A DNA stretch of 39,039 nucleotides, from assembly GCA_947581815.1 (NCBI GenBank), contig CANPVX010000005.1, forward strand, positions 1 through 39,039. Direction: 5' to 3'. This DNA comes from Candidatus Indicimonas acetifermentans. Its GTDB lineage: Bacteria; Gemmatimonadota; Gemmatimonadetes; Palauibacterales; KS3-K002. Positions 21,949 through 37,229 of the stretch are shown piece by piece (the stretch's first letter is position 1; each line of letters starts with the position of its first letter). The position numbers and the translations under genes are program-made. The notes under the pieces were generated by a model, which searched no databases, had not been told where the DNA came from, and was given only the letters and a program-made list of their open reading frames with translations.

Positions 21949-22278
21949 TTACTGGAGCGATCCCTCGGTTCGCTCGATGAAGATGTCCATCACACCGCCG
22001 CAGACGGCCGGGCTGAACGATTCGACATCATCGGTCAGCTCCACTCGGATGAGCTGTGGCACACCGGTATCGAGCACCTGGCGTGCCGTCTCTATCACAT
22101 CGGCCTCGCCGCAGCCGCCACCGATCGTGCCGACCTGCTCGCCATCGGCGCCGATGAGCATCTTGCTACCGACATCGCGTGGGGTCGAGCCCTTGACCTG
22201 CACAACCGTCGCAAGGGCGACCGGGCGCGCTTCTCTGGCCGCCGCCGCGGCCGCCTCCAGAATCTCTCGATCCTCCAT
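21949..22278 (-). CDS. Stand-alone XdhC/CoxI N-terminal-domain protein
   Basis: The 109-residue protein is only the XdhC/CoxI domain. It has VALATVVQVKGSTPRDVGSK, then the conserved cysteine motif GGGCGEADV and the second motif SPAVCGGVMDIFIE. XdhC-type chaperones bind molybdenum cofactor, help its sulfuration and insert it into xanthine-dehydrogenase-family enzymes. The Rossmann domain that usually follows is absent and is found in the next gene upstream. It starts 5 bases after the xdhC stop, so the two are co-translated. Its likely client is the molybdo-enzyme about 4 kb to the right. Confidence 0.85.
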   Translation of the reverse strand: MEDREILEAAAAAAREARPVALATVVQVKGSTPRDVGSKMLIGADGEQVGTIGGGCGEADVIETARQVLDTGVPQLIRVELTDDVESFSPAVCGGVMDIFIERTEGSLQ

Positions 22279-22283
22279 TCGGC

Positions 22284-23123
22284 TCAGCCAGCTCCCTTCT
22301 TCGATTCGTGCTTGCGTGCGACGCGGCGAAGCACGCGCTCACTCTCGGTGAGCGGGACCCCGCTACCTCCCCGGCGCCCAGCGATGATCTCCGCGGCTAT
22401 GGCAACGGCGATTTCTTCGGGGGTCTCCGCGGCGATGTCGAGGCCGATGGGGGCACGCACGTCGTCGAGGAGCCGCGGATCGATCCCGTCGCTCACCAGA
22501 GCCTCGAACGCCGCGCGGACGCGCCGCCGGCTACCGATCATTCCGAGGTAAGCGGGCCGCGCCGACATGCTCAGGAGCTCTCGAATACAATCGTAGTCGT
22601 ACTCGTGCGCCCGGGTAACCAACACGATATACGAATCCGGCCGGACATCTACGTCGCGGAAAGGATGCGCGAAGTCCACCACCGCGACCTTATCGGCATC
22701 GGGAAACCAGCGCTCGCTGGCGAACTCCGGCCGGTCATCGAGGACCGTGACGCGAAACCCGATCAGCGAACCGATGTGGGCCAGCGGCCGCGCGATGTGG
22801 CCCGCCCCGACGATCACCAACTCGGGTCTTGGATGCTGTGACTCCACGTAGATCTCCCACGTTGCATCACCGACCTCGAGGCTTCTGAGCCCGCGCCAGC
22901 GAGACTCCAGGGATTCGCGCGCGAGATCCACCGCCCAGGCATCGGCCTCGGACGACCCGAGACCGCCTCTGACGGAATCGCTCGTGACGATCAGCCTCTT
23001 GCCCGCCGCTCCGGGCTCCGGCCCGGCAATCACGGTCACGAGTGCGACGGACTCGCCCCGATTCGTGGCCTCGAGCGCCGCCGCCGCCGCCGCTGCCGCC
23101 GAGATGTTCGCGCTGCCCGTCAC
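22284..23123 (-). CDS. xdhC: XdhC-family molybdenum-enzyme maturation protein
   Basis: The 279-residue protein joins an N-terminal XdhC-like domain to the XdhC C-terminal Rossmann domain (ELVIVGAGHIARPLAHIGSL, FRVTVLDDRPEFAS, DSYIVLVTRAHEYDYDC, AYLGMIGSRRRVRAAFEAL). I chose the GTG whose last two bases begin the TGA stop of the upstream mocA gene (GTGA overlap). An ATG 8 codons earlier is open. The N-terminal domain reads GGLGSSEADAW where working XdhC proteins have a glycine-cysteine motif, so that cysteine is missing here but kept in the small neighbour. An alanine run (SAAAAAAAALEA) follows the start. Confidence 0.9.
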   Translation of the reverse strand: MTGSANISAAAAAAAALEATNRGESVALVTVIAGPEPGAAGKRLIVTSDSVRGGLGSSEADAWAVDLARESLESRWRGLRSLEVGDATWEIYVESQHPRPELVIVGAGHIARPLAHIGSLIGFRVTVLDDRPEFASERWFPDADKVAVVDFAHPFRDVDVRPDSYIVLVTRAHEYDYDCIRELLSMSARPAYLGMIGSRRRVRAAFEALVSDGIDPRLLDDVRAPIGLDIAAETPEEIAVAIAAEIIAGRRGGSGVPLTESERVLRRVARKHESKKGAG

Positions 23124-23746
23124 ACGCCGCCCCCGCCCCCGAGCCAACGCTCGTACTCTTCGGGAGTGTCCACGTCGATCAAGACTCCCTCGTCGTCCAC
23201 TTCCACGTCCGACACCGCGCCGGCGTGTGAGCGCACGACCGAACGCGCCCCCTCCGCCCCCTCCGCCCCCTCCGCCCCCTCAGGAGCCGCGCCGTGCAGC
23301 AACTCTCCGAACAGCGCTGCGCTGAAGAGCACGGGATGGCCGTGCTTTCCTTGAAAGGTCGGACGCACGATCAGCGCCTCCCCCCCCCCTTCCGCGAATG
23401 CGGCGATCAAGGCCGCGACCGTCTCCGGCCGTACCAACGGATGATCGACCGGCATGACCACCGCCGCTTCGGCCGACGCCGACGTGGCACGAAGGCCCGA
23501 GCGTAACGAGTCGATCTGCTCGGACCCGGGACCGGAACCGGCGGCGGAGCGGACGCCACCCTCGAACGCGCGCTCGGGGCCCGCAGGGTGATCGGGGTCG
23601 ATCACGATGACTACATCCGCACAGCCGCCTGCGATCAACGTGTTTACGGCGCGTTGCAGGAAGGTCTCCCCCTCGACCTCGAGCGATGCCTTCGGTCGCC
23701 CCATGCGCCGAGACTCCCCTCCTGCCAACACTATTCCGGCGATCAT
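23120..23746 (-). CDS. mocA: Molybdenum cofactor nucleotidyltransferase (MocA/MobA-like)
   Basis: The 208-residue protein starts MIAGIVLAGGESRRMGRPKA, the nucleotide-binding loop of the MobA/MocA family. It continues with DVVIVIDPDHP, VVMPVDHPLVRPETVAALIA and FQGKHGHPVLFSAALFGELL, and ends in VLIDVDTPEEYERWLGG. The pattern fits MocA, which adds CMP to molybdopterin to make the dinucleotide cofactor used by xanthine-dehydrogenase-family enzymes. The start chosen fits the family; a 31-residue extension upstream is not needed. Two odd features lie in the coding sequence: a G10 run giving EGGGE and four tandem EGA codon triplets. It heads the three-gene maturation operon. Confidence 0.88.
   Translation of the reverse strand: MIAGIVLAGGESRRMGRPKASLEVEGETFLQRAVNTLIAGGCADVVIVIDPDHPAGPERAFEGGVRSAAGSGPGSEQIDSLRSGLRATSASAEAAVVMPVDHPLVRPETVAALIAAFAEGGGEALIVRPTFQGKHGHPVLFSAALFGELLHGAAPEGAEGAEGAEGARSVVRSHAGAVSDVEVDDEGVLIDVDTPEEYERWLGGGGGV
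23247..23281. repeat. 9-base tandem repeat in mocA (GCCCCCTCC)
   Basis: Three perfect copies and a fourth near-complete copy of GCCCCCTCC on the + strand encode Glu-Gly-Ala four times in the mocA product. The repeat lies between the body of the enzyme and its C-terminal segment. Confidence 0.85.
23390..23399. repeat. C10/G10 homopolymer inside mocA
   Basis: There are ten C on the + strand, or ten G in the coding strand, read as GAA followed by three Gly codons and the first base of GAG. A one-base change would shift frame in the middle of the enzyme. Confidence 0.85.
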
Positions 23747-23899
23747 ATCTGGAAGATGAACCGGCGAGCTAGCCCAGTCAAAATTCGAGGCGGCCGCAAT
23801 CGCATGTAGCGGACGCCTCATCATCAGAGTGCAGCCCATGAGGCGAGGGGCGAGACCCTACCCGATCCCGCCCCTCTCTAGATTGTGCAGGGCCCGTTT

Positions 23900-24463
23900 C
23901 TATACCCGATCGTAAACCAGGCGGAATTCGACAACCTCGTCGCGATCGGGGTGTTGCATATTGTTGGTGACGAACAGCTGCTGGCCGTCATCGCTCGGCG
24001 TGAAGCTCTGCGTTGCCGTTGCTCCATCGCTGGAGGAGCGCTCCATCACGAGGACATCGCCGTCCAGCGACGCCGTGATTTCGACCTGTCCCCGCGCCGT
24101 CTCCCGAGTGACGGTGGATCCATCTGTTGGGAACGTTTGCGTCACGCTACCGCCCCTACCGCCCCTACCGCCCCTGCTGAACGTGACGCTCGATTCATCC
24201 TGCGTGATCACCAGCTCGCCGCCGCCCATCCGGCGGCGCGGCCCGCGACGCCGGCCCTGTCCGTCGTGCATCTGGCCGCCAGGCCCCTCGCTCTGTTCCC
24301 GGTTGAGCGTCCAGGTCCCGGATATGCCGGTCCCCTGCGACGCGCTGAGCGTCGTGCTGGCCTCCAGGTCCGAGGTCACCGGGTCATCGCACGCCGCAGC
24401 TACGGAGACGCACAGCACGGTAAGCGCTGTGGCCAAGAGTCTTAAGAACCTGCCCTCATTCAT
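23900..24463 (-). CDS. Putative lipoprotein with GRG repeats
   Basis: I chose the ATG with AGGAGGG upstream, giving 187 residues. The N-terminus is a signal sequence (MNEGRFLRLLATALTVLCVS, then VAAACDDP) ending at a cysteine, so it is probably a lipoprotein, although the lipobox has Ala rather than Leu at -3. The mature part has a start like SGTWTLNREQSEGPGG, which recurs in uncharacterised secreted beta-rich proteins. It also has a basic stretch (GRRRGPRRRMGG), a Gly-Arg repeat (SRGGRGGRGGS) and beta strands (ITASLDGDVLVMERSS, VVEFRLVYDRV). The function is unknown. It stands alone between mocA and the DinB-like gene. Confidence 0.72.
   Translation of the reverse strand: MNEGRFLRLLATALTVLCVSVAAACDDPVTSDLEASTTLSASQGTGISGTWTLNREQSEGPGGQMHDGQGRRRGPRRRMGGGELVITQDESSVTFSRGGRGGRGGSVTQTFPTDGSTVTRETARGQVEITASLDGDVLVMERSSSDGATATQSFTPSDDGQQLFVTNNMQHPDRDEVVEFRLVYDRV
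24148..24174. repeat. 9-base tandem repeat (TACCGCCCC) x3 in the lipoprotein gene
   Basis: Three perfect copies on the + strand encode the Gly-Arg-Gly repeat of the lipoprotein. The unit differs from the 9-base repeat in mocA. Confidence 0.85.
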
Positions 24464-24618
24464 GGGTCGCCCTCCTCGATTCGATCCTCTCCACACGACG
24501 TTGCGGCAGGCTGTGCCGCCCGGCCCCGGCCCAAGCCGCTCCCGGCAACGTTCGACTTTCGATTCAAGGACAGATTGAGTTGGGAAAGTGTTAGCCCGTG
24601 GTTGGGTGGGCCCCACCC

Positions 24619-25134
24619 TCAATCGGCGCCACGGATCCTGCGGGTCAGCGCCGGCTCGATCCCCATCAGCCTTTCATAGAGGGCGAGCTGCCCGCGGTGG
24701 TACATCTCCTGCGCGATTCCATGATTGAGCCAGGCGAGCCGGGTTCCTTGGGCGCCGTCGAACCTCGTGATCAGCTGAAGCATGGCGAGCTCGCCCGCTT
24801 CCCTGAATCTTGCCACGCCCTCGTCGAGGGACGATTTAAGGAGGGCAAGAAGCTCCGCTTTTCCGCGAGCTTCCTTGACGTGTGCCGCGTACTGGCCGAT
24901 GAGCTCCGGCCACGGAGCTCGGTGAAAGTTCGTGTCCGGGCGCGTCAGCTCGCCGGTCATGAGCTCAGCGACCTCGATGATGTGCTGGATCAACTCGGTC
25001 ACGCTCTTCACTTCGGGCGTCGGTCGGAAGTCGAAGCGCCTGTCGGGGATATTCTCGGCTTCCTCGATGATCCCCTGCCGCGCATCGACCCAGGCTTCCA
25101 GGGTCTCCTCCAGCAACGTCGTGAAAGTCATCAT
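24619..25134 (-). CDS. DinB/YfiT-family putative metal-dependent enzyme
   Basis: The 171-residue four-helix-bundle protein fits the DinB family: TLLEETLEAWVDARQGI at the start, VTELIQHIIEVAELM with His51, and LNHGIAQEMYHRGQLALYER near the end with His138 and His146. DinB-family proteins often bind a metal with three His and act as thiol transferases or have unknown roles. In most relatives a His lies four positions before the His of HRGQ; here that position is Gln142, so the usual metal site may be incomplete. It begins about 15 bases after a 44-codon small ORF. No ribosome site is evident. Confidence 0.85.
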   Translation of the reverse strand: MMTFTTLLEETLEAWVDARQGIIEEAENIPDRRFDFRPTPEVKSVTELIQHIIEVAELMTGELTRPDTNFHRAPWPELIGQYAAHVKEARGKAELLALLKSSLDEGVARFREAGELAMLQLITRFDGAQGTRLAWLNHGIAQEMYHRGQLALYERLMGIEPALTRRIRGAD

Positions 25135-25306: not shown

Positions 25307-26707
25307 CTACAGATCGGCCAGCATCTCTCCGACCGACGTGAACTTCACCCGCGGCCGCCCCTGATCCTTACCGCGACTCACCTCCAGATCGTTGATCCGT
25401 CGCCAGTCCTCGAGGGACACATACTCCGGCCTGCGCTCAGCGATCAGCTTTTCCACGGAGGATGGCTCGGGGTGGAGAGGATCCAGCACCGCGCCGGCCG
25501 CGACATCTTCCAGCATCGCAGCCACGGTCTCGCCAGCATCCGGTTTGTTCGTGCCGATCACCCCGGTCGGGCCGCGCTTTATCCAGCCGCTGACGTAGAC
25601 GCCCTCTACGCGCACATCGGTGTCGCAGTCGATCACCCGCCCCTTTTCGTTGGGCACTATACCGCGCCTCTCATCGAACGGGAGATCGGCGAGCGGCACG
25701 CCGTGATAACCGACGGATCGAAATACGAGTTGAACGGGAAGCTCTTCGTAGCGGTCTGTTGCCCCAGGGCGCAGGCTACCATCTTCTGATTCGTAGAGCT
25801 CGTTTTTCACGATACGCATGGCCACAACCTTCCCATCTTCGTCCCCTATCAACTCCACGGGAGAGACCAGAAAGCGGATCGTCAACTTCTTCCGCTTGCC
25901 TTGGTCGTCCCGGCCTGCAAAGCCCTGCAATATCTCGAGCTTCTTGAGAGTGGCCTTATCCTGGCCCTCATCGAGCTTGGCCTGGCTCAGCGCATCGAGC
26001 GTCACCTCCTCCAGCAAGACTTCGATGTCGGCCCCAGGCATCTCCCCCAGCTCTTTCACCTCGGGGTTGGTGAAGGCCGCCTGCACGGGCCCGCGGCGGC
26101 CCAGCATGTACACCTCTTTGATTCCACTGCCACTTATCGCCTCGAGGGCGTGGTCCGCGATATCGGTGCTCGCGAGCTCCTCCCGAGTTCGGCACAGCAT
26201 GCGAGCAACGTCTACGGCGACGTTCCCGACGCCGACGACGGCCACGCGCTCGACCTCGGACGAGAGGTCGAACTCGCAGTCGCGATAGTCAGGGTGGCTG
26301 TTGTACCAGGCCACGAACTCCGTCGCCGCATGGCTCCGATCGAGGTCCTCCCCCGGTATGCCCATCCGCCGGTCGGTCTGCGCTCCCGTCGCAAAACAGA
26401 TCTGATGGTAGTACTGCTGCAACTCAGCCAGCGAGACGTGTGCCCCTACATCCACGTTACCGAAGAAACGGAAGTTCGGTTTGGCCGATATCTTGTCGAA
26501 CACGCGTGTCACGTTCTTGATCTTCTCATGGTCCGGCGCGACGCCGAATCTCACCAGCCCGAAAGGTGTGGGAAGGCGATCGTACATGTCGATCTCGATA
26601 CTGAGGTCCTCCTCCTTCTGCAGCTTCTCAGCCACGTAGAAGCCAGCCGGGCCGGATCCGACGATTGCCACGCGTAGAGGCTGGGCCTCTGTGCCCAGTG
26701 GAGTCAT
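25307..26707 (-). CDS. fprA: Ferredoxin-NADP+ reductase, adrenodoxin-reductase type
   Basis: The 466-residue FAD enzyme moves electrons between NADPH and ferredoxin. It has the FAD-binding loop VAIVGSGPAGFYVAEKLQ, the family hallmark DRLPTPFGLVRFGVAPDHEK, and the NADPH-binding loop VAVVGVGNVAVDVARMLCRT. The C-terminal part has GVYVSGWIKRGPTGVIGTNK, as in M. tuberculosis FprA and mitochondrial adrenodoxin reductase. The length is normal. It is divergent from the three-gene molybdo-enzyme operon, with back-to-back promoters in the 242-base gap. It may therefore supply reduced ferredoxin to that enzyme; this is an inference from position. Confidence 0.95.
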   Translation of the reverse strand: MTPLGTEAQPLRVAIVGSGPAGFYVAEKLQKEEDLSIEIDMYDRLPTPFGLVRFGVAPDHEKIKNVTRVFDKISAKPNFRFFGNVDVGAHVSLAELQQYYHQICFATGAQTDRRMGIPGEDLDRSHAATEFVAWYNSHPDYRDCEFDLSSEVERVAVVGVGNVAVDVARMLCRTREELASTDIADHALEAISGSGIKEVYMLGRRGPVQAAFTNPEVKELGEMPGADIEVLLEEVTLDALSQAKLDEGQDKATLKKLEILQGFAGRDDQGKRKKLTIRFLVSPVELIGDEDGKVVAMRIVKNELYESEDGSLRPGATDRYEELPVQLVFRSVGYHGVPLADLPFDERRGIVPNEKGRVIDCDTDVRVEGVYVSGWIKRGPTGVIGTNKPDAGETVAAMLEDVAAGAVLDPLHPEPSSVEKLIAERRPEYVSLEDWRRINDLEVSRGKDQGRPRVKFTSVGEMLADL

Positions 26708-26949: not shown

Positions 26950-27450
26950 TTGATCGAGGCCCTCAGGCTCACCGTCAACGGTGACACCCAGGAGATCGGC
27001 GTCCCCAGCCACTACACGTTGCTCGAAGCTCTGCGCTACGTACTCGGATACACCGGCTCGAAACAGGGGTGCGACAAGGGCGACTGCGGGGCGTGCACCG
27101 TTCTCCTCGACGGCCAGCCAGCTCTTTCCTGCATTCTGCCCGTCCAGGAAGCCATCGATCGCGAGGTCACGACGGTAGAGGGACTTGCGGGGCCCGACGG
27201 ACCTCACCCTCTACAGGATGCTTTCGACCTCACCGGCGCGGCGCAATGTGGTTTCTGCACGCCGGGCATCCTGATGTCGGCCGCCAGCCTGCTGCAGCGA
27301 AACCAGAGTCCGTCCAACCATGAGATCCGTGAGGCGCTATCCGGCAACCTCTGTCGCTGCACAGGCTACACTAAGATCTTCGATGCGGTGGAGATCGCCG
27401 CCCGCGCTTTGCGCGAGAACCGCCCCGCCGCGGAAGTGGTCAGAGCATGA
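26950..27450 (+). CDS. hcrC: Molybdo-enzyme [2Fe-2S] small subunit, 4-hydroxybenzoyl-CoA-reductase-like
   Basis: The 166-residue small subunit of a xanthine-dehydrogenase-family enzyme carries two [2Fe-2S] clusters. The plant-type one is in KQGCDKGDCGACTVLLDG and PALSC; the second is in QCGFCTPGILMSA and GNLCRCTGYTKIFDAV. It passes electrons between the FAD and molybdenum subunits. It starts at TTG, fixed by a strong ribosome site, and its stop overlaps the large-subunit ATG by 4 bases. The symbol follows the subunit naming of 4-hydroxybenzoyl-CoA reductase because of the cluster loop in the FAD subunit; the true substrate is not proven. Confidence 0.9.
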   Translation: MIEALRLTVNGDTQEIGVPSHYTLLEALRYVLGYTGSKQGCDKGDCGACTVLLDGQPALSCILPVQEAIDREVTTVEGLAGPDGPHPLQDAFDLTGAAQCGFCTPGILMSAASLLQRNQSPSNHEIREALSGNLCRCTGYTKIFDAVEIAARALRENRPAAEVVRA

Positions 27451-29885
27451 AGCTGGAAGACTTCAGAGGGCGGCAAGCCGATTCGGCGGCGAGCGAGGAG
27501 GAGCTGCGCGAGGCACTGGAGCGCGAGTTCCAAGTCATAGGTCGGCGCCTACGCCGGACGGACGGCATGTCCAAGTCCACCGGGCGAACGCTCTACGCCG
27601 ACGATATCACGCTCCCGGGGATGCTCCATGCCAAGATCCTGCGGAGCCCCCACGCTCATGCCCTCATCAAATCGATAGATGCATCTGCAGCACTCGAACT
27701 GCGTGGCGTGCACGCGGTAGTGACGGGCGCCGATATGCCCGTTCCCTACGGGATAATTCCGTGGACCCGCGACGAGTATCCGCTGTGCGTCGATAAGGTG
27801 CGCTACATCGGGGACGGCGTCGCCGCCGTCGCCGCCATCGATGAGGACACGGCTAACCGGGCCCTCGACTCGATCGAGGTCGAATATGAGGTGTTGCCCC
27901 ACTTTCTCGATCCCGAGGAAGCGTTGGAGAGGTCCGACACGCCGATCCACGAGCCGCACAAGCCGGGGCAGAACGGGAATATCTCCAAGAAGGTCCACCT
28001 CGAGTTCGAGGATGTAGAGAAGGGTTTGGCGGATTCGGACGTCGTGATCGAGGGTGAGTACTACTTCGAGGGGACGACCCACACCCCGATCGAGCCACAC
28101 TGCGCGATCGGCTACTTCGATCCTTCGGGCAAGCTCACCGTCTGGTCGGCGACCCAGGTGCCCCACTATCTGCACCGGGAGTTGGCCCGGGTGCTCGAGC
28201 TCGACGTCGCCAAAGTCAGGGTCATTCAGCCGCCGGTGGGCGGCGCCTTCGGCGGAAAGTCGGAGCCGTTCGACCTCGAGTTCTGTGTGGCAAAGCTCGC
28301 GATGATCACAGCGCGCCCGGTGAAGATCCTCTACACGCGCGAAGAGGTCTTCTACGCTCATCGCGGCCGGCACCCGATGCTCATGCATTACAAGACGGGC
28401 GCCGATCGTCATGGGCGAATCAAGGCCGTCGATGCTACGACGATCATCGATGGTGGGGCCTATTCATCCTTCGGCCTCGTCACCACCTACTATTCCGGGC
28501 AGCTGATCACCGCGCCCTACCAGATGGAGTCGTATCGCTTCGATTCCACGCGTGTCTATACGAACAAGCCCTGCTGCGGCCCAAAGCGAGGCCACGGCTC
28601 GGTGCAGCCTCGCTTCGCCATCGAAGTCCAGCTCGACAAGATCGCCGAAGCTCTGGACATCGACCCCATCGAGCTGCGGCGCCGCAACTTCATCGGCACC
28701 AACACGCGAACCATCAACGAGCTGCGCATCACTTCCAACGGCTTTCTCCAATGCCTCGAAGAGGTCGAGAGGGCCAGCGCCTGGAAGAGCAAGCACCGCA
28801 AGCTGGACTACGGCCGCGGGGTCGGCGTCGCCGGTTCGTGCTACATCTCGGGCACTAACTATCCCATCTACCCGAACGACATGCCGCAGTCGGCGGTCCA
28901 GCTCCAGGTCGATCGCTCGGGCCGCGTGGCAGTGTTCGCCGGCGCGTCGGAGATCGGCCAGGGTTCGGATTCAATGCTCGCCTACATCGTCGCCGAAGAG
29001 CTCGGCGTGCCGCTCGACTACATAAGAATCCTCTCGGCCGACACCGACCTGACACCGGTGGATCTGGGCGCCTACTCGTCACGCGTCACTTTCATGTGCG
29101 GCAACGCGTGTATCGATGCGGCCAGAAAGATCAAGAAGTTGGTCTGCGAAGCGGTGGCCGAGGCGTGGAATTGTAAGGCGAAAAGCATCATGCTCGCCGG
29201 CGGCTGGGCCTTCAAGGCAGAGGACACGGCCCAGAAGATGCCGATCTCGGAAGCGTTCAACTTGGCCGAGGCGAAGTTCGGCGCGTTGGGCGCCACCGGA
29301 TCCTACAACACCCCCAAGGACATCCACGGCACCTATCGCGGCGGCACGATCGGCTCTTCTCCCGCTTTCTCGTTCACCGCCCACGTGGCCGAAGTCGATG
29401 TGGACCCGGAGACGGGGTTCGTCGAGATCCACAAGATCTGGATCGCCCACGACTGCGGCCGCGCGCTCAATCCGCTGCTCGTGGAGGGGCAGATGGAGGG
29501 ATCCGTCTACATGGGGGCGGCGGAAGCCATAATGGAGGAGCACATCTTCAAGGAGACCGGCCTCCATAACGCACCGTCGCTGCTCGACTACAAGATACCG
29601 ACCAGCCTCGACACACCCGAGATGCAGTCCATCATAGTGGAATCCATCGATCCGGAGGGGCCCTACGGCGCCAAGGAGGCGGGCGAAGGTCCTCTGCACC
29701 CGTCCATCCCCGCCATAGCCTGCGCCATATACGACGCCGTCGGCGTGCGCCTGGACCGGCTGCCCTTCTCTCCGCCGCGGGTCTGGGCGGCGATTCGAGA
29801 ACGCGGGCGCCAAGAAGAGGCAGGCGAACTGTCGCCGTGGAAGAGTCCGCCGATCAGCGTGCCGCTCCCCGCCACGGGCGATTAA
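27447..29885 (+). CDS. hcrA: Molybdo-enzyme large (Mo-cofactor) subunit, 4-hydroxybenzoyl-CoA-reductase-like
   Basis: The 812-residue molybdopterin-binding subunit shows the family's domains in order: the N-terminal RTDGMSKSTGRTLYADD and GMLHAKILRSPHAHALIKSI, then PPVGGAFGGKSEPFDLEFC (about 260-280). KRGHGSVQPRFAIE follows at about 380, where xanthine and CO dehydrogenases have RGFG or related sequences, and GASEIGQGSDSML comes later. GAKEAGEGPLHPSIPA holds the likely catalytic Glu747. There is no CO-dehydrogenase active-site CSFR motif, so it is not a form I CO dehydrogenase. RGHG fits HcrA-type subunits as far as I recall them. The substrate is inferred from the FAD-subunit loop. Confidence 0.9.
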   Translation: MKLEDFRGRQADSAASEEELREALEREFQVIGRRLRRTDGMSKSTGRTLYADDITLPGMLHAKILRSPHAHALIKSIDASAALELRGVHAVVTGADMPVPYGIIPWTRDEYPLCVDKVRYIGDGVAAVAAIDEDTANRALDSIEVEYEVLPHFLDPEEALERSDTPIHEPHKPGQNGNISKKVHLEFEDVEKGLADSDVVIEGEYYFEGTTHTPIEPHCAIGYFDPSGKLTVWSATQVPHYLHRELARVLELDVAKVRVIQPPVGGAFGGKSEPFDLEFCVAKLAMITARPVKILYTREEVFYAHRGRHPMLMHYKTGADRHGRIKAVDATTIIDGGAYSSFGLVTTYYSGQLITAPYQMESYRFDSTRVYTNKPCCGPKRGHGSVQPRFAIEVQLDKIAEALDIDPIELRRRNFIGTNTRTINELRITSNGFLQCLEEVERASAWKSKHRKLDYGRGVGVAGSCYISGTNYPIYPNDMPQSAVQLQVDRSGRVAVFAGASEIGQGSDSMLAYIVAEELGVPLDYIRILSADTDLTPVDLGAYSSRVTFMCGNACIDAARKIKKLVCEAVAEAWNCKAKSIMLAGGWAFKAEDTAQKMPISEAFNLAEAKFGALGATGSYNTPKDIHGTYRGGTIGSSPAFSFTAHVAEVDVDPETGFVEIHKIWIAHDCGRALNPLLVEGQMEGSVYMGAAEAIMEEHIFKETGLHNAPSLLDYKIPTSLDTPEMQSIIVESIDPEGPYGAKEAGEGPLHPSIPAIACAIYDAVGVRLDRLPFSPPRVWAAIRERGRQEEAGELSPWKSPPISVPLPATGD

Positions 29886-29890
29886 GAAAC

Positions 29891-30892
29891 ATGCTGCGAC
29901 TACACCCCTATCGGTACCACAGGCCGAAAGAGCTGGGGGAAGCCCTCGAGCTGCTGAGGGAGCACCGCGGCGACTCGATGCCCATCGCGGGCGGCACGGA
30001 CCTCATGCCCAACATGAAGCACGGTCTCTACACACCGAGCCACCTGGTGGCGCTCAAAGGAGTCGAGGAGCTGCATGTAATTGAAGAGCGCGACGGCGAG
30101 CTCGTCATCGGCGCCGCCGAAACGCTGACGAGGGTCGCGAGCGATCCCCTGATCAAGCGGCGCCTGCCCGGATTGGCGCGGGCGGCGGAAGGTATCGCGC
30201 ACCCGATGATTCGCAACATCGGTACGATCGGTGGTAACGTCTGCCTGGATACGCGCTGCACGTACTACAATCAAACGTACTTCTGGCGTGAGGCTCTCGG
30301 GTTCTGCCTAAAGAAGGACGGCGACGTCTGCTACGTGGTCAAAGGCGGGAGCCGCTGCGTCGCGGCCCATTCGGCTGACACGCCCCCCATGCTCATGACG
30401 CTGGGTGCGACCGTGGACCTCGCCACCGCCGACGGCGCTCGTTCCGTGCCCTTGACGAAGTTTTTCACAGCAGACGGAATCTGGAACACCGTGCGCGAGC
30501 CCGACGAGCTCGTCATCAGGGTGAGAGTACCGATCCCCTCGCCGCGGCTCCGCACCAGCTACCAGAAGGTACGGGAGCGCAAGTCGGTGGACTTCCCTCT
30601 CTTGGGTATCGCTCTCGCAGTCGAGATCGACGATTCGCACTTGATCGAATCGATCTCGCTCGTGGTCGCTGGACTCGGCGCGAAACCACGCGTGGTCGGA
30701 GGGCTGGACAAAATCGCCGGCGGGCAGCGGCTGACACCCGACATCATAGAAGAGGTCGCGCGGCGAGCACACCGGCAGTGCAATCCGCTCGACAACCTCA
30801 TCGTCGACACCGACTGGCGCCACGCCATGGTAGCCGTTTACGTACGGCGTGCGTTCGAGGAAGTCCTGGGCCAGCCCCTGGCGGCAGCGTGA
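29891..30892 (+). CDS. hcrB: Molybdo-enzyme FAD subunit with extra [4Fe-4S] loop, HcrB-like
   Basis: The 333-residue FAD-binding subunit starts MLRLHPYRYHRPKELGEAL, then PIAGGTDLMPNMKHG (FAD-binding loop) and NIGTIGGNVCLDTRC. After the second FAD motif comes an insertion with Cys123, Cys139, Cys147 and Cys156. This is the same spacing (15, 7 and 8 residues between) as Cys122, 138, 146 and 155, which hold the extra [4Fe-4S] cluster in Thauera aromatica 4-hydroxybenzoyl-CoA reductase. Ordinary xanthine and CO dehydrogenases lack this loop. In that enzyme ferredoxin electrons enter there for a very low-potential reduction. The tail includes SYQKVRERKSVDFPLLGIAL. The ATG lies 5 bases after the large subunit. 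Confidence 0.92.
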   Translation: MLRLHPYRYHRPKELGEALELLREHRGDSMPIAGGTDLMPNMKHGLYTPSHLVALKGVEELHVIEERDGELVIGAAETLTRVASDPLIKRRLPGLARAAEGIAHPMIRNIGTIGGNVCLDTRCTYYNQTYFWREALGFCLKKDGDVCYVVKGGSRCVAAHSADTPPMLMTLGATVDLATADGARSVPLTKFFTADGIWNTVREPDELVIRVRVPIPSPRLRTSYQKVRERKSVDFPLLGIALAVEIDDSHLIESISLVVAGLGAKPRVVGGLDKIAGGQRLTPDIIEEVARRAHRQCNPLDNLIVDTDWRHAMVAVYVRRAFEEVLGQPLAAA

Positions 30893-34098: not shown

Positions 34099-36018
34099 AT
34101 GGGGCAGGAAGTTAAAGCCGAGCGCGAGCCAGAAGCGATCCGGGCCTTCACCCGAGCCATCCTGCAGGACCTCCACGCACTCGAGCGCATTCTCGCGGAC
34201 GGACTGATCGAGTCGGACGTTCGCCGAATCGGCGTCGAGCAGGAGCTATTCCTGGTGGACCGGAGCCGGGCGCCGGCCCCGCGCGCCATGGAGGTGCTGG
34301 AGCGGCTGAAGAAAGACAGCAGCTTCACCACGGAGCTGGCAAAGTTCAACCTGGAGATCAATCTAGAGCCTCTGAGGCTGGAGCGGGATTGTTTCCGGGT
34401 GCTGGAGGGCGCCGTCAGAAGCAAGGTTGAAGCGGCGCGCGCCGCGGCGAAGGCGGAAGATGCGGACGTCTTGCTCGCCGGCATCCTGCCCACGCTCAAC
34501 AAATCAGATCTTTCGCTCGACAACATCACGCCCAGGCAACGCTACTACGCGTTGAACGAAGCGGTGAACAGGATGAGAGGCGGGCCTGGGCGGCTTCGAA
34601 TCCAAGGGATCGATGAGCTTGACGTCGAATACAACTCCGTGATGTACGAAAGCTGCAATACCAGCTTTCAGGTTCACCTTCAGGCGGGGGCGGAAGAGTT
34701 CGCGCACATGTACAATGCCGCCCAGGCGGTGTCGGGACCGGTTCTGGCCTCCATGGTGAATTCCCCTCTCCTCTTTGGGCGACGTCTGTGGGCCGAGACA
34801 CGAATCGCACTGTTCCAGCAATCGGTCGATACTCGAGGAGCGATGCCGCATCTGAGGGAAAGAAGCCCGCGGGTGCGGTTCGGCGAGCACTGGGTAAACG
34901 GCTCGGTGTTGGAGCTGTTCCAAGAAGATCTGAGTCGCTTCTGGGTCCTGCTCAGTGCCGACGTGGAGGAGGATCCGTTCGCGAGGCTGGAAGCGGGGGA
35001 GATTCCGCTGCTCAGAGCCCTGCAGCTCCACAACGGCACCGTTTACAGATGGAATCGCCCCTGCTACGGGATCAGCGATGGGCGACCGCACCTCAGGATC
35101 GAATGCCGTTACATGCCGTCCGGACCGACGATCGTCGACGAGACGGCGAACGCCGCGTTTTGGGCGGGCTCGGTTCTGGGCCTTGCCCAGACATATAGGA
35201 ACATACCCGAGCTGATCGAGTTCGACGAGGTGAAGGGCAACTTCCTGGCGGCGGCACGCCACGGGCCGTCCGCGGCGTTCAGCTGGCTCGACGGCGAGAC
35301 GGTCGGTGCTAAGGAGTTGATCCTCGAGCGGCTGCTGCCGATCGCCCGCGAAGGACTGCAGGCGGCGAGCATCGACGACGCCGATATCGATCACTACTTG
35401 GGGATCATCGAGACACGGGTCGCGACCGGGCAGACGGGCTCGCAGTGGCTGTCTCGGTCGCTCGGTGGATTCAAGGACGAGGGTACCCGCGGCGAAAGGC
35501 TGGCCGCCCTCACCGGTGCGATGGTCGAACGCCAGAAGGATGGTAGGCCGGGTCACGAGTGGCCCTTGGCGAGGCTCGGGGAGGCCGGCGGGTGGCAGGA
35601 CAAATACCTGCGCGTCGAGGACTACATGACCACCGACCTCTTCACTGTTCACGAGGATGAGCTCGTGGACCTGGTGGCCTTCTTGATGGACCAGAAGCAC
35701 ATCCGCCACGTGTTGGTCGAGGACGATTCACACCGGATCGTGGGTCTCGTATCGTACCGCTCCCTGCTGAGGCTGCTGATTCGGGGCCGCGCGAGCGAAT
35801 CCGATACAGTGCCGGTAGGAGAGGTCATGGTGAGAGACCCCATCACGATCCCGCCAGAGACTTCGACGATCGAAGCCATCGAGCTCATGAGAGACAACCG
35901 GGTTTCCTGTCTCCCCGTCGTGAAGGACGGCAAACTGATCGGCATGGTGAGCGAACGCGACTTCCTGCCGATGGCGCGACAACTCTTAGAAGAAAGGTTG
36001 AAAACACGTGACACCTGA
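34099..36018 (+). CDS. GCS2-family carboxylate-amine ligase fused to a CBS pair
   Basis: The first 500 residues are a glutamate-cysteine-ligase-2-like domain: RRIGVEQELFLVDRS with the conserved Glu near the start, then FNLEINLEPLRLE, NTSFQVHLQAG and RIECRYMPSGPTIVDE. The last 135 residues are two CBS domains: DYMTTDLFTVHEDELVDLVA, HIRHVLVEDDSHRIVGLVSY, then VMVRDPITIPPETSTIEAIE and SCLPVVKDGKLIGMVSERDF. GCS2 enzymes join a carboxylate to an amine with ATP. CBS pairs bind adenosine nucleotides and often control an attached enzyme. The stop overlaps the next start (TGATG), so both are coupled. The substrate is unknown. Confidence 0.9.
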   Translation: MGQEVKAEREPEAIRAFTRAILQDLHALERILADGLIESDVRRIGVEQELFLVDRSRAPAPRAMEVLERLKKDSSFTTELAKFNLEINLEPLRLERDCFRVLEGAVRSKVEAARAAAKAEDADVLLAGILPTLNKSDLSLDNITPRQRYYALNEAVNRMRGGPGRLRIQGIDELDVEYNSVMYESCNTSFQVHLQAGAEEFAHMYNAAQAVSGPVLASMVNSPLLFGRRLWAETRIALFQQSVDTRGAMPHLRERSPRVRFGEHWVNGSVLELFQEDLSRFWVLLSADVEEDPFARLEAGEIPLLRALQLHNGTVYRWNRPCYGISDGRPHLRIECRYMPSGPTIVDETANAAFWAGSVLGLAQTYRNIPELIEFDEVKGNFLAAARHGPSAAFSWLDGETVGAKELILERLLPIAREGLQAASIDDADIDHYLGIIETRVATGQTGSQWLSRSLGGFKDEGTRGERLAALTGAMVERQKDGRPGHEWPLARLGEAGGWQDKYLRVEDYMTTDLFTVHEDELVDLVAFLMDQKHIRHVLVEDDSHRIVGLVSYRSLLRLLIRGRASESDTVPVGEVMVRDPITIPPETSTIEAIELMRDNRVSCLPVVKDGKLIGMVSERDFLPMARQLLEERLKTRDT

Positions 36019-37229
36019 TGCTGCTCGCTCTTGGGAGGCGATGGAAGAGGAGGAAGGGGGGGGGGGCACTAGAGCGCGTTATCGGTCGCTTCACGGATGA
36101 TGCCGCCGGCCCAACATTCATCTGCATAGCAGGGCTTCACGGAAACGAGCCTTCCGGAGTCCAGGGACTCAAGAGAGTTTTCAAGACGCTCCAGCAAGCG
36201 AAACCGTCTTTGAACGGTGAGTTCGTTGGCCTCGCTGGTAACCTCTCCGCCCTCGCCCAGCACCGACGCTTCATCGACTACGACCTGAATCGATGTTGGT
36301 CCGCAGCGACCGTCGAGGACCACGCTCCCGAGTCCGGCTTCGCTCCCACCACAGGCGTCGAGGCAAGAGAGCAGCGGGAGCTCTTGGCCGAACTAGAGCG
36401 CGTCTTCGATCGCGCGCGCGGCGAAGTCTACGTCCTGGACCTGCACTCCACCTCCGGCGACGGCGCCCCGTTCGCCGTGCTCAACGATACGCTTCGTAAC
36501 CGTGAATTCGCCCTCGCCTTCCGCGTGACCATAGTTCTCGGAGTCGCGGAGAACCTCGGCGGCACGCTCATGGACTACATCAACGACTTCGGGCATGTGA
36601 ACATCGGCTTTGAAGCCGGCAAGCACGACGATCCCGCCACGATCGATAACGCGGAAGCGGCGGTATGGGTCGGTCTGGCGGCGACCGGATGCGTTGCTAG
36701 CGGTCTGCCCGAAGTGCACCGCTCCAGGAGCCGTCTCACTCAAGCCAGAGGACCCCTGCCGCGCGTCGCCGAAGTCCGCTACCGCCACGCCATCGCGAGG
36801 GCAGACGGCTTCAGGATGGAGCCCGGTTTCTTAAACTTTCAGCGGATCACCACCGGCCAGCTGCTGGCGCGCGACCGCCGTGGCGAGATCCGTTCGCGCA
36901 AATCGGGGCGCATGTTGATGCCGCATTACCAAGAACTCGGGGAGGATGGCTTCTTCGTGATCCGGGAATTCCGACCACATTGGCTCGCCGCCTCAGCTCT
37001 GCTGCGACGACTGCGCTTCGACGCCATCGTTCATTGGCTTCCCGGCGTCAGGCGCCACCCTAAGTATCCCGGTACACTCATCATCGATCGCCGAATCGCT
37101 CGCTGGCGAGCCCTGGATCTCCTTCACCTGCTCGGCTTTCGAAAGCAGCGGGCAATAGGAAACGTTCTATTGATCAGCCGTCGCGCGCGACCCCGGCCAC
37201 CGAGGCCGAGGCGCAGACCAAGCGCATGA
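36018..37229 (+). CDS. AstE/AspA-family zinc deacylase
   Basis: This succinylglutamate-desuccinylase/aspartoacylase-type zinc carboxypeptidase has AGLHGNEPSG (His41 and Glu44 as zinc ligands), DYDLNRCW, VLDLHSTSGDG (third ligand, near 143) and IGFEAGKHDD, whose Glu is the likely general base. The 403-residue length exceeds AstE because of a C-terminal half without recognised motifs and an Arg/Pro tail. It is coupled to the GCS2-CBS gene. The start is uncertain: an 11-G run sits 38 bases after the ATG, and another ATG at 36041 would be in frame only if the run were one base shorter. Such enzymes cleave N-acyl amino acids. Confidence 0.85.
   Translation: MLLALGRRWKRRKGGGALERVIGRFTDDAAGPTFICIAGLHGNEPSGVQGLKRVFKTLQQAKPSLNGEFVGLAGNLSALAQHRRFIDYDLNRCWSAATVEDHAPESGFAPTTGVEAREQRELLAELERVFDRARGEVYVLDLHSTSGDGAPFAVLNDTLRNREFALAFRVTIVLGVAENLGGTLMDYINDFGHVNIGFEAGKHDDPATIDNAEAAVWVGLAATGCVASGLPEVHRSRSRLTQARGPLPRVAEVRYRHAIARADGFRMEPGFLNFQRITTGQLLARDRRGEIRSRKSGRMLMPHYQELGEDGFFVIREFRPHWLAASALLRRLRFDAIVHWLPGVRRHPKYPGTLIIDRRIARWRALDLLHLLGFRKQRAIGNVLLISRRARPRPPRPRRRPSA
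36056..36066 (+). repeat. G11 homopolymer near the start of the deacylase gene
   Basis: Eleven consecutive G encode Gly residues 14-16 of the product starting at 36018. The tract is preceded by GAGGAGGAA. Confidence 0.9.

Follow-up and report, generated by a model that had tools for sequence, protein, structure and literature searches.

The window, a stretch of 39,039 nucleotides that forms one contig of a 2.39 Mb, 91.7% complete genome, carries three adjacent genes on the plus strand at 26950-30892. They encode a [2Fe-2S], a molybdenum and a FAD subunit and have the three-subunit architecture of the xanthine oxidase (XO) family (Mo / FAD / 2x[2Fe-2S]).

The trio and its neighbours

26950..27450, plus strand: small subunit with two [2Fe-2S] clusters (HcrC/gamma-like), 166 aa, TTG start (1RM6_C; Fer2_2 PF01799; TIGR03193)
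27447..29885, plus strand: large molybdopterin subunit (HcrA/alpha-like), 812 aa (1RM6_A; TIGR03194; tree; residue mapping)
29891..30892, plus strand: FAD and [4Fe-4S] subunit (HcrB/beta-like), 333 aa, ATG at 29891 (1RM6_B by sequence and fold)
30257..30358, plus strand: loop with four putative [4Fe-4S] ligands, Cys123 to Cys156, C-X15-C-X7-C-X8-C (HcrB alignment)
25307..26707, minus strand: FprA/adrenodoxin-reductase-like ferredoxin-NADP reductase, divergent from the trio (Pyr_redox_2)
23120..23839, minus strand: MocA-like molybdopterin cytidylyltransferase (NTP_transf_3 PF12804)
22284..23147, minus strand: XdhC-like maturation factor with XdhC_C Rossmann domain (PF13478 and PF02625)
21949..22278, minus strand: short XdhC_CoxI-domain protein, split XdhC (PF02625, 4.9e-27)

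The TTG start of the small-subunit gene is immediately preceded by GGAGG. For all three subunits the nearest solved relative is the 4-hydroxybenzoyl-CoA reductase (HCR) of Thauera (1RM6), which gave the top PDB match for the small (1RM6_C, 1.7e-45), the large (1RM6_A, 1.6e-186; next family 4.6e-88) and the FAD subunit (1RM6_B, 7.7e-59 by phmmer). The HCR models of NCBIfam also rank top for each subunit, yet the scores stay under the equivalog cut-offs: with TIGR03193/4/5 we obtained 179 bits against 258 for the small, 881 against 995 for the large and 285 against 405 for the FAD subunit. The large subunit is 42% identical to Thauera HcrA, and we found no characterised enzyme that is at least 50% identical to the trio.

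The neighbours on the opposite strand are the split XdhC, the MocA-like protein, an ORF without a Pfam match, a DinB protein and the FprA-like reductase, and we infer that the last may supply electrons to the trio enzyme. An XO-type enzyme would be expected to have XdhC and MocA as its maturation factors (PMC2997495). The split XdhC pair (short XdhC_CoxI plus longer XdhC_C, 21949-23147) recurs in two other loci (L034 and L052), and L034, from the window's family, has the same order, gyrA-xdhC-xdhC-mocA-fnr, divergent from the small (S), large (L) and FAD (F) subunit genes. In Eisenbacteria the genes form one operon, S-L-F-XdhC-MocA; indeed, a MocA gene lies directly 3' of the FAD or XdhC gene in both Eisenbacteria and Myxococcota homologues. 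Thiolase, BrxA-like, DUF1460-like, Zn-ADH and aminotransferase neighbours were considered as pathway clues and rejected as local synteny, because they are conserved only inside single Gemmatimonadota families, often on the opposite strand.

Additionally, we noted several features beside the main subject. The ORF between mocA and dinB (23900-24622) codes for 187-240 aa. At 34099-36018 a glutamate-cysteine-ligase-like (GCS2) domain is fused to CBS domains, which is an unusual fusion, and an AstE/AspA-like gene follows at 36018-37229. In relatives from family f6 (L041, L044, L049-L051, L060-L063, L065, L066, L119) a gene of about 270-390 aa, DUF1460-like by eye, separates the genes of the Mo and FAD subunits, and many of these loci also have a bacilliredoxin-like gene next to that of the small subunit.

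Cysteine loop, phylogeny and active site

The FAD subunit has cysteines at positions 118, 123, 139, 147, 156 and 297. C123, C139, C147 and C156 align one to one with C122, C138, C146 and C155 of Thauera HcrB (phmmer alignment, 1RM6 chain B) and sit in an insertion of about 40 residues that CO dehydrogenase medium chains do not have. All four are invariant in the 28 aligned homologues (28/28), their C-X15-C-X7-C-X8-C spacing arose in only 4 of 200,000 shuffles of the FAD-subunit protein, and it is kept in every Gemmatimonadota FAD subunit of the compared clade whose loop was called intact. An AlphaFold2 model of the subunit (pLDDT 85) has its best fold match in 1RM6_B (TM 0.87; CO dehydrogenase 0.79). 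Because residues 124-155, which include two of the four Cys, have a pLDDT below 50, it is homology rather than the model that leads us to expect the four Cys to converge in space and bind a putative [4Fe-4S] cluster.

The loop by itself is no marker of 4-hydroxybenzoyl-CoA reductase (4-HBCR), because a [4Fe-4S] loop is present in PaoB, the FAD subunit of an E. coli aldehyde oxidoreductase, as well (PMC13404670). PaoABC, which is periplasmic (PMC3958847), shares with the window enzyme the XO family and the extra loop in the FAD subunit. In contrast, the Cys spacing is X9/X8/X18 in PaoB and X15/X7/X8 in the window, the large subunits are only 27% identical, and the two are distant in the tree. 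Of the features expected of a xanthine dehydrogenase, a FAD subunit without the Cys loop and a clade with XdhA, the window enzyme shows neither. The statement of an earlier note on this DNA, that the cluster sets 4-HBCR apart from ordinary xanthine dehydrogenases, has to be restricted in view of the cluster in PaoB. Other cysteine loops were seen elsewhere: a Myxococcota genome (G239, L236:9525-10520) encodes an HCR-type FAD subunit whose Cys loop is altered and longer (GGANAKPATGCLKCDSAGICHIAPKGK), and three loci of the window's family (L067, L068, L069) encode a second XO-type enzyme, whose FAD subunit has another Cys-rich loop (RPRCWYF...C...C...C). In the tree, L067 and L069 fall with PaoC by their large subunits, on long branches.

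The large-subunit tree comprised 55 rows and included one characterised HcrA, that of Thauera; a search of plasmids for true HCRs as further references found none. Every HCR-type homologue with the loop falls into a single group with Thauera HcrA (100/99), separate from E. coli XdhA, PaoC, an Ensifer XDH-like protein, quinoline oxidoreductase and CO dehydrogenase. The Gemmatimonadota copies of clade A are likewise one group (100/99), and the branch beside them (91/77) contains the myxobacterial L151.

Residue mapping places HcrA Tyr326 at Tyr349 of the window and the glutamate of GAKE at Glu744, and the large subunit carries the motifs YSSRVTFM and GAKEA, as HcrA does. The active-site loop of CODH (AYxCSFR, form I) is absent, with PKRGHGS at the corresponding position. 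The active-site segments, chosen by homology to xanthine dehydrogenase motifs and not from coordinates, are 72-82% identical to the non-Gemmatimonadota rows of clade A, 46% to HcrA and 24-38% to the oxidases. About half of the segment positions therefore differ from Thauera HcrA. Compared with homologues from benzoyl-CoA pathway loci, the Gemmatimonadota enzymes show no fixed active-site change; in the whole large subunit only two positions are fixed in 17 Gemmatimonadota rows and absent in 18 other rows, and neither lies in the active-site segments.

With Thauera aromatica HcrABC (1RM6/1SB3) the enzyme shares its three subunits, the spacing of the cluster ligands, the tyrosine equivalent to Tyr326, the motifs YSSRVTFM and GAKEA and the tree group. 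It differs in staying under the TIGR03193/4/5 cut-offs and in that no benzoyl-CoA pathway was found in its genome. From the letters of the DNA, the earlier note had proposed a 4-HBCR-type Mo enzyme; the PDB and NCBIfam matches, the tree and the motifs agree with this and not with a xanthine, CO, quinoline or aldehyde type. The genes and the HcrB alignment confirm the three subunits and the Cys loop that it had placed in this interval, with ligand spacing equal to that of Thauera, and the tree check that it had suggested, run for the large subunit, groups the window with Thauera HcrA (100/99) and not with the other classes.

Occurrence of the enzyme and of benzoyl-CoA genes

The relatives of the window are Gemmatimonadota, a largely uncultured group of soil and marine habitats, and its family includes Candidatus Kutchimonas denitrificans. 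We detected the clade A enzyme in 74 of 149 sampled Gemmatimonadota genomes, where membership means an identity of at least about 52%, the tree itself having placed only 17 rows. HGD-D (BcrB/C-like) was found in 31 of the 149, and the two do not co-occur (15/74 vs 16/75, p=1). In the Myxococcota sample (n=141), HGD-D was present in 25 of 49 genomes with an HCR-type FAD subunit versus 16 of 92 (p=7e-5, kinship ignored). Clade A also co-occurs with TIGR02262 ligases above cut-off (46/74 vs 13/75, p=2e-8; within family f6 p=0.03), which is a lead in which phylogeny and genome size act as confounders.

A clade A locus of Myxococcota (L230) is an apparent operon on one strand, S-L-F-MocA-BcrD-BcrA-BcrB-BcrC-Dch-Oah-Had, in which BcrB, BcrC, BcrD, Oah and Had exceed their curated cut-offs. 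Its Mo subunit reaches 856 bits on TIGR03194, below the 881 of the window, and its alpha and beta subunits are both under cut-off with lower scores than those of the window; that the window misses the TIGR03194/5 cut-offs is therefore a weak argument against a function as HCR in this lineage. Beside the myxobacterial L151, the homologue nearest to the Gemmatimonadota enzymes, lie BcrB and Had, which exceed their cut-offs, and BcrA and BcrD, which narrowly miss theirs. These two uncharacterised benzoyl-CoA clusters resemble the window in the large subunit (59-64%), the active-site segments (72-81%) and the loop; they sit with bcr and had (L230 also with dch and oah), whereas the Gemmatimonadota copies that we examined do not. 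A LeuA-like gene that adjoins the L151 trio, and in L164 is found close to a Bcr cluster, was discarded as a marker because homologues occur in 97 of 149 genomes.

Class I benzoyl-CoA-reductase-like pairs are present in about one fifth of the sampled Gemmatimonadota (L164, L167, L170 and others; 31/149). One genome (G016) has Oah-like, Dch-like and Had-like genes beside a Bcr-like pair, all well under curated cut-offs. In another of the same class (family f7, G127:C18, L173:8946-17311), a BcrC/B/A/D-like cluster precedes the genes of a different XO enzyme, whose FAD subunit has no [4Fe-4S] loop and whose [2Fe-2S] and Mo parts are fused in one protein of 948 aa.

We searched the 91.7% complete genome of the window for the pathway itself. 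Neither a class I (HGD-D, BcrB/C family) nor a class II benzoyl-CoA reductase (AFOR/BamB) gave a match, and BoxB gave only an 18-bit match that we consider noise, so that a Box-pathway sink for benzoyl-CoA was rejected. Haem-copper oxidases are encoded, as is a gene of the 2-oxoacid:ferredoxin oxidoreductase family (627 bits, cut-off 483), and the only MoCoBD_1 match above the reporting limit is the large subunit of the window. We identified no dedicated 4-hydroxybenzoate-CoA ligase in the genome. The single TIGR02262 ligase above cut-off (494 bits, cut-off 375) adjoins a protein of the bifunctional salicylyl-CoA 5-hydroxylase/oxidoreductase family (1155 bits, cut-off 1078), an architecture that we take to be also that of 2-aminobenzoyl-CoA monooxygenase/reductase. 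A kynureninase-like fragment beside the ligase was read by eye and has no NCBIfam match at the limit used. This benzoate-CoA ligase match was rejected as a 4-hydroxybenzoate ligase because it lies within a kynurenine/anthraniloyl-CoA-type cluster. The apparent cluster (L183, G000:C55:1-14081) comprises the aryl-CoA ligase, creatininase-like, SDR, RidA-like, crotonase, acyl-CoA dehydrogenase and bifunctional monooxygenase/OYE genes and the kynureninase-like fragment; related clusters of other genomes contain tryptophan-dioxygenase-like and kynureninase-like genes (by eye).

The observation in the earlier note that no CoA ligase, benzoyl-CoA reductase or ring-opening gene is seen here is correct for benzoyl-CoA pathway genes in the window. 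The genome search that it had proposed found neither a 4-hydroxybenzoate-CoA ligase nor benzoyl-CoA genes, the sole ligase above cut-off lying in the anthraniloyl-CoA-type cluster. The first of its two options, anaerobic degradation of phenolic acids by this organism, is unsupported, with no BcrB/C, AFOR/BamB or real BoxB in the 91.7% complete genome and with haem-copper oxidases present. The second, a related reductase with another substrate, we keep as a rival, although no fixed active-site change speaks for it.

Probable mechanism, alternatives and implications

Taken together, the sequence data make it probable that the trio forms a cytoplasmic alpha-beta-gamma enzyme of the HCR clade, which would reductively dehydroxylate an aromatic acyl-CoA with a hydroxyl in para position. 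The likeliest substrate is 4-hydroxybenzoyl-CoA or a close analogue. Ferredoxin would be reduced by a 2-oxoacid:ferredoxin oxidoreductase such as the genome's own, or by the adjacent FprA-like reductase with NADPH. From reduced ferredoxin, electrons would pass to the extra [4Fe-4S] cluster, to FAD, to the two [2Fe-2S] clusters and finally to the Mo-MCD centre, where the para-hydroxyl of the ring would leave as water. The MCD cofactor is expected to be matured by XdhC and MocA in this enzyme family. Such an electron path and reductive dehydroxylation were reportedly proposed for 4-HBCR by Unciuleac et al. in 2004, and the chemistry is probably familiar. It is similar to the published description of Ucdh, the urolithin C dehydroxylase of Enterocloster bolteae, a member of the XO family that takes off, reductively, a phenolic OH in para position to a carbonyl group; its closest characterised relative is HCR (32.7% identity to 4-HBCR), and it is driven by NADH in vitro (PMC12771579). 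The weak point of the mechanism is that no known benzoyl-CoA-consuming enzyme was seen in the 91.7% complete genome. The missing part of the genome, an unknown sink and another substrate are the candidates that could explain the fate of the product.

If the missing 8% of the genome held a Bcr cluster, the trio could be the authentic 4-hydroxybenzoyl-CoA reductase of a full anaerobic benzoyl-CoA pathway. Such a cluster is one block that can be lost in a single gap, BcrB/C-like pairs occur in some enzyme-bearing Gemmatimonadota, including G001, G004 and G006 of the same family, and G016 has its Bcr-like/Dch-like/Oah-like/Had-like cluster, though under curated cut-offs. We nevertheless consider this unlikely: Bcr is absent here and in Ca. 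Kutchimonas denitrificans (G003) of the same family, G034 is the only one of the many genus g7 genomes within the 31 with an HGD-D match, and there is no statistical co-occurrence in the class (p=1).

The trio may also be an HCR-type reductase whose specificity has shifted to a different hydroxylated aryl- or heteroaryl-CoA in aerobic metabolism, such as one connected with anthraniloyl-CoA/kynurenine or other aromatic amino acid breakdown. The spread of the enzyme in largely respiratory Gemmatimonadota would fit, as would its co-occurrence with TIGR02262 aryl-CoA ligases (p=2e-8), which in this genome lie in an anthraniloyl-CoA-type cluster. We regard this reading, too, as improbable, since the active site has no fixed change against the benzoyl-CoA-pathway homologues, the ligase co-occurrence is confounded as described, the trio and the ligase gene are not adjacent, and the anthraniloyl-CoA route introduces its hydroxyl at a position other than para to the thioester. 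Least of all do we expect an oxidative Mo hydroxylase or aldehyde dehydrogenase of the PaoABC kind, in which the [4Fe-4S] loop would serve another partner. PaoB does work oxidatively with such a loop (PMC13404670) and the host encodes haem-copper oxidases, but the Cys spacing and tree position are different, the CODH active-site motif is missing, and HcrABC is the best match for all three subunits.

4-HBCR counts as a hallmark of the anaerobic degradation of aromatic compounds. In our best reading, many Gemmatimonadota have an HCR-type dehydroxylase that is for the most part not coupled to ring reduction. It is a new lineage of a known enzyme type; unexpectedly, it is broadly distributed in Gemmatimonadota and shows no association with benzoyl-CoA reductase there. 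In Longimicrobium terrae, hcrABC and badA were reported, by annotation, as benzoyl-CoA pathway genes (PMC10936416); an hcrABC annotation should be used with caution as evidence of anaerobic aromatic degradation. More tentatively, a ferredoxin-dependent aryl-CoA dehydroxylase of the HCR type may act in Gemmatimonadota independently of the anaerobic benzoyl-CoA pathway, in cells that respire and have no known benzoyl-CoA-degrading enzyme. If this is true, there would be an undescribed sink for dehydroxylated aryl-CoA, or a new substrate. About half of the 149 sampled genomes, in a class that mostly encodes haem-copper oxidases, hold a close HCR relative that has kept its active-site segments, and in most cases a benzoyl-CoA reductase does not accompany it. 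Either dearomatisation has been overlooked in Gemmatimonadota, or the reductive dehydroxylation of phenols also serves another purpose that has so far gone unrecognised.
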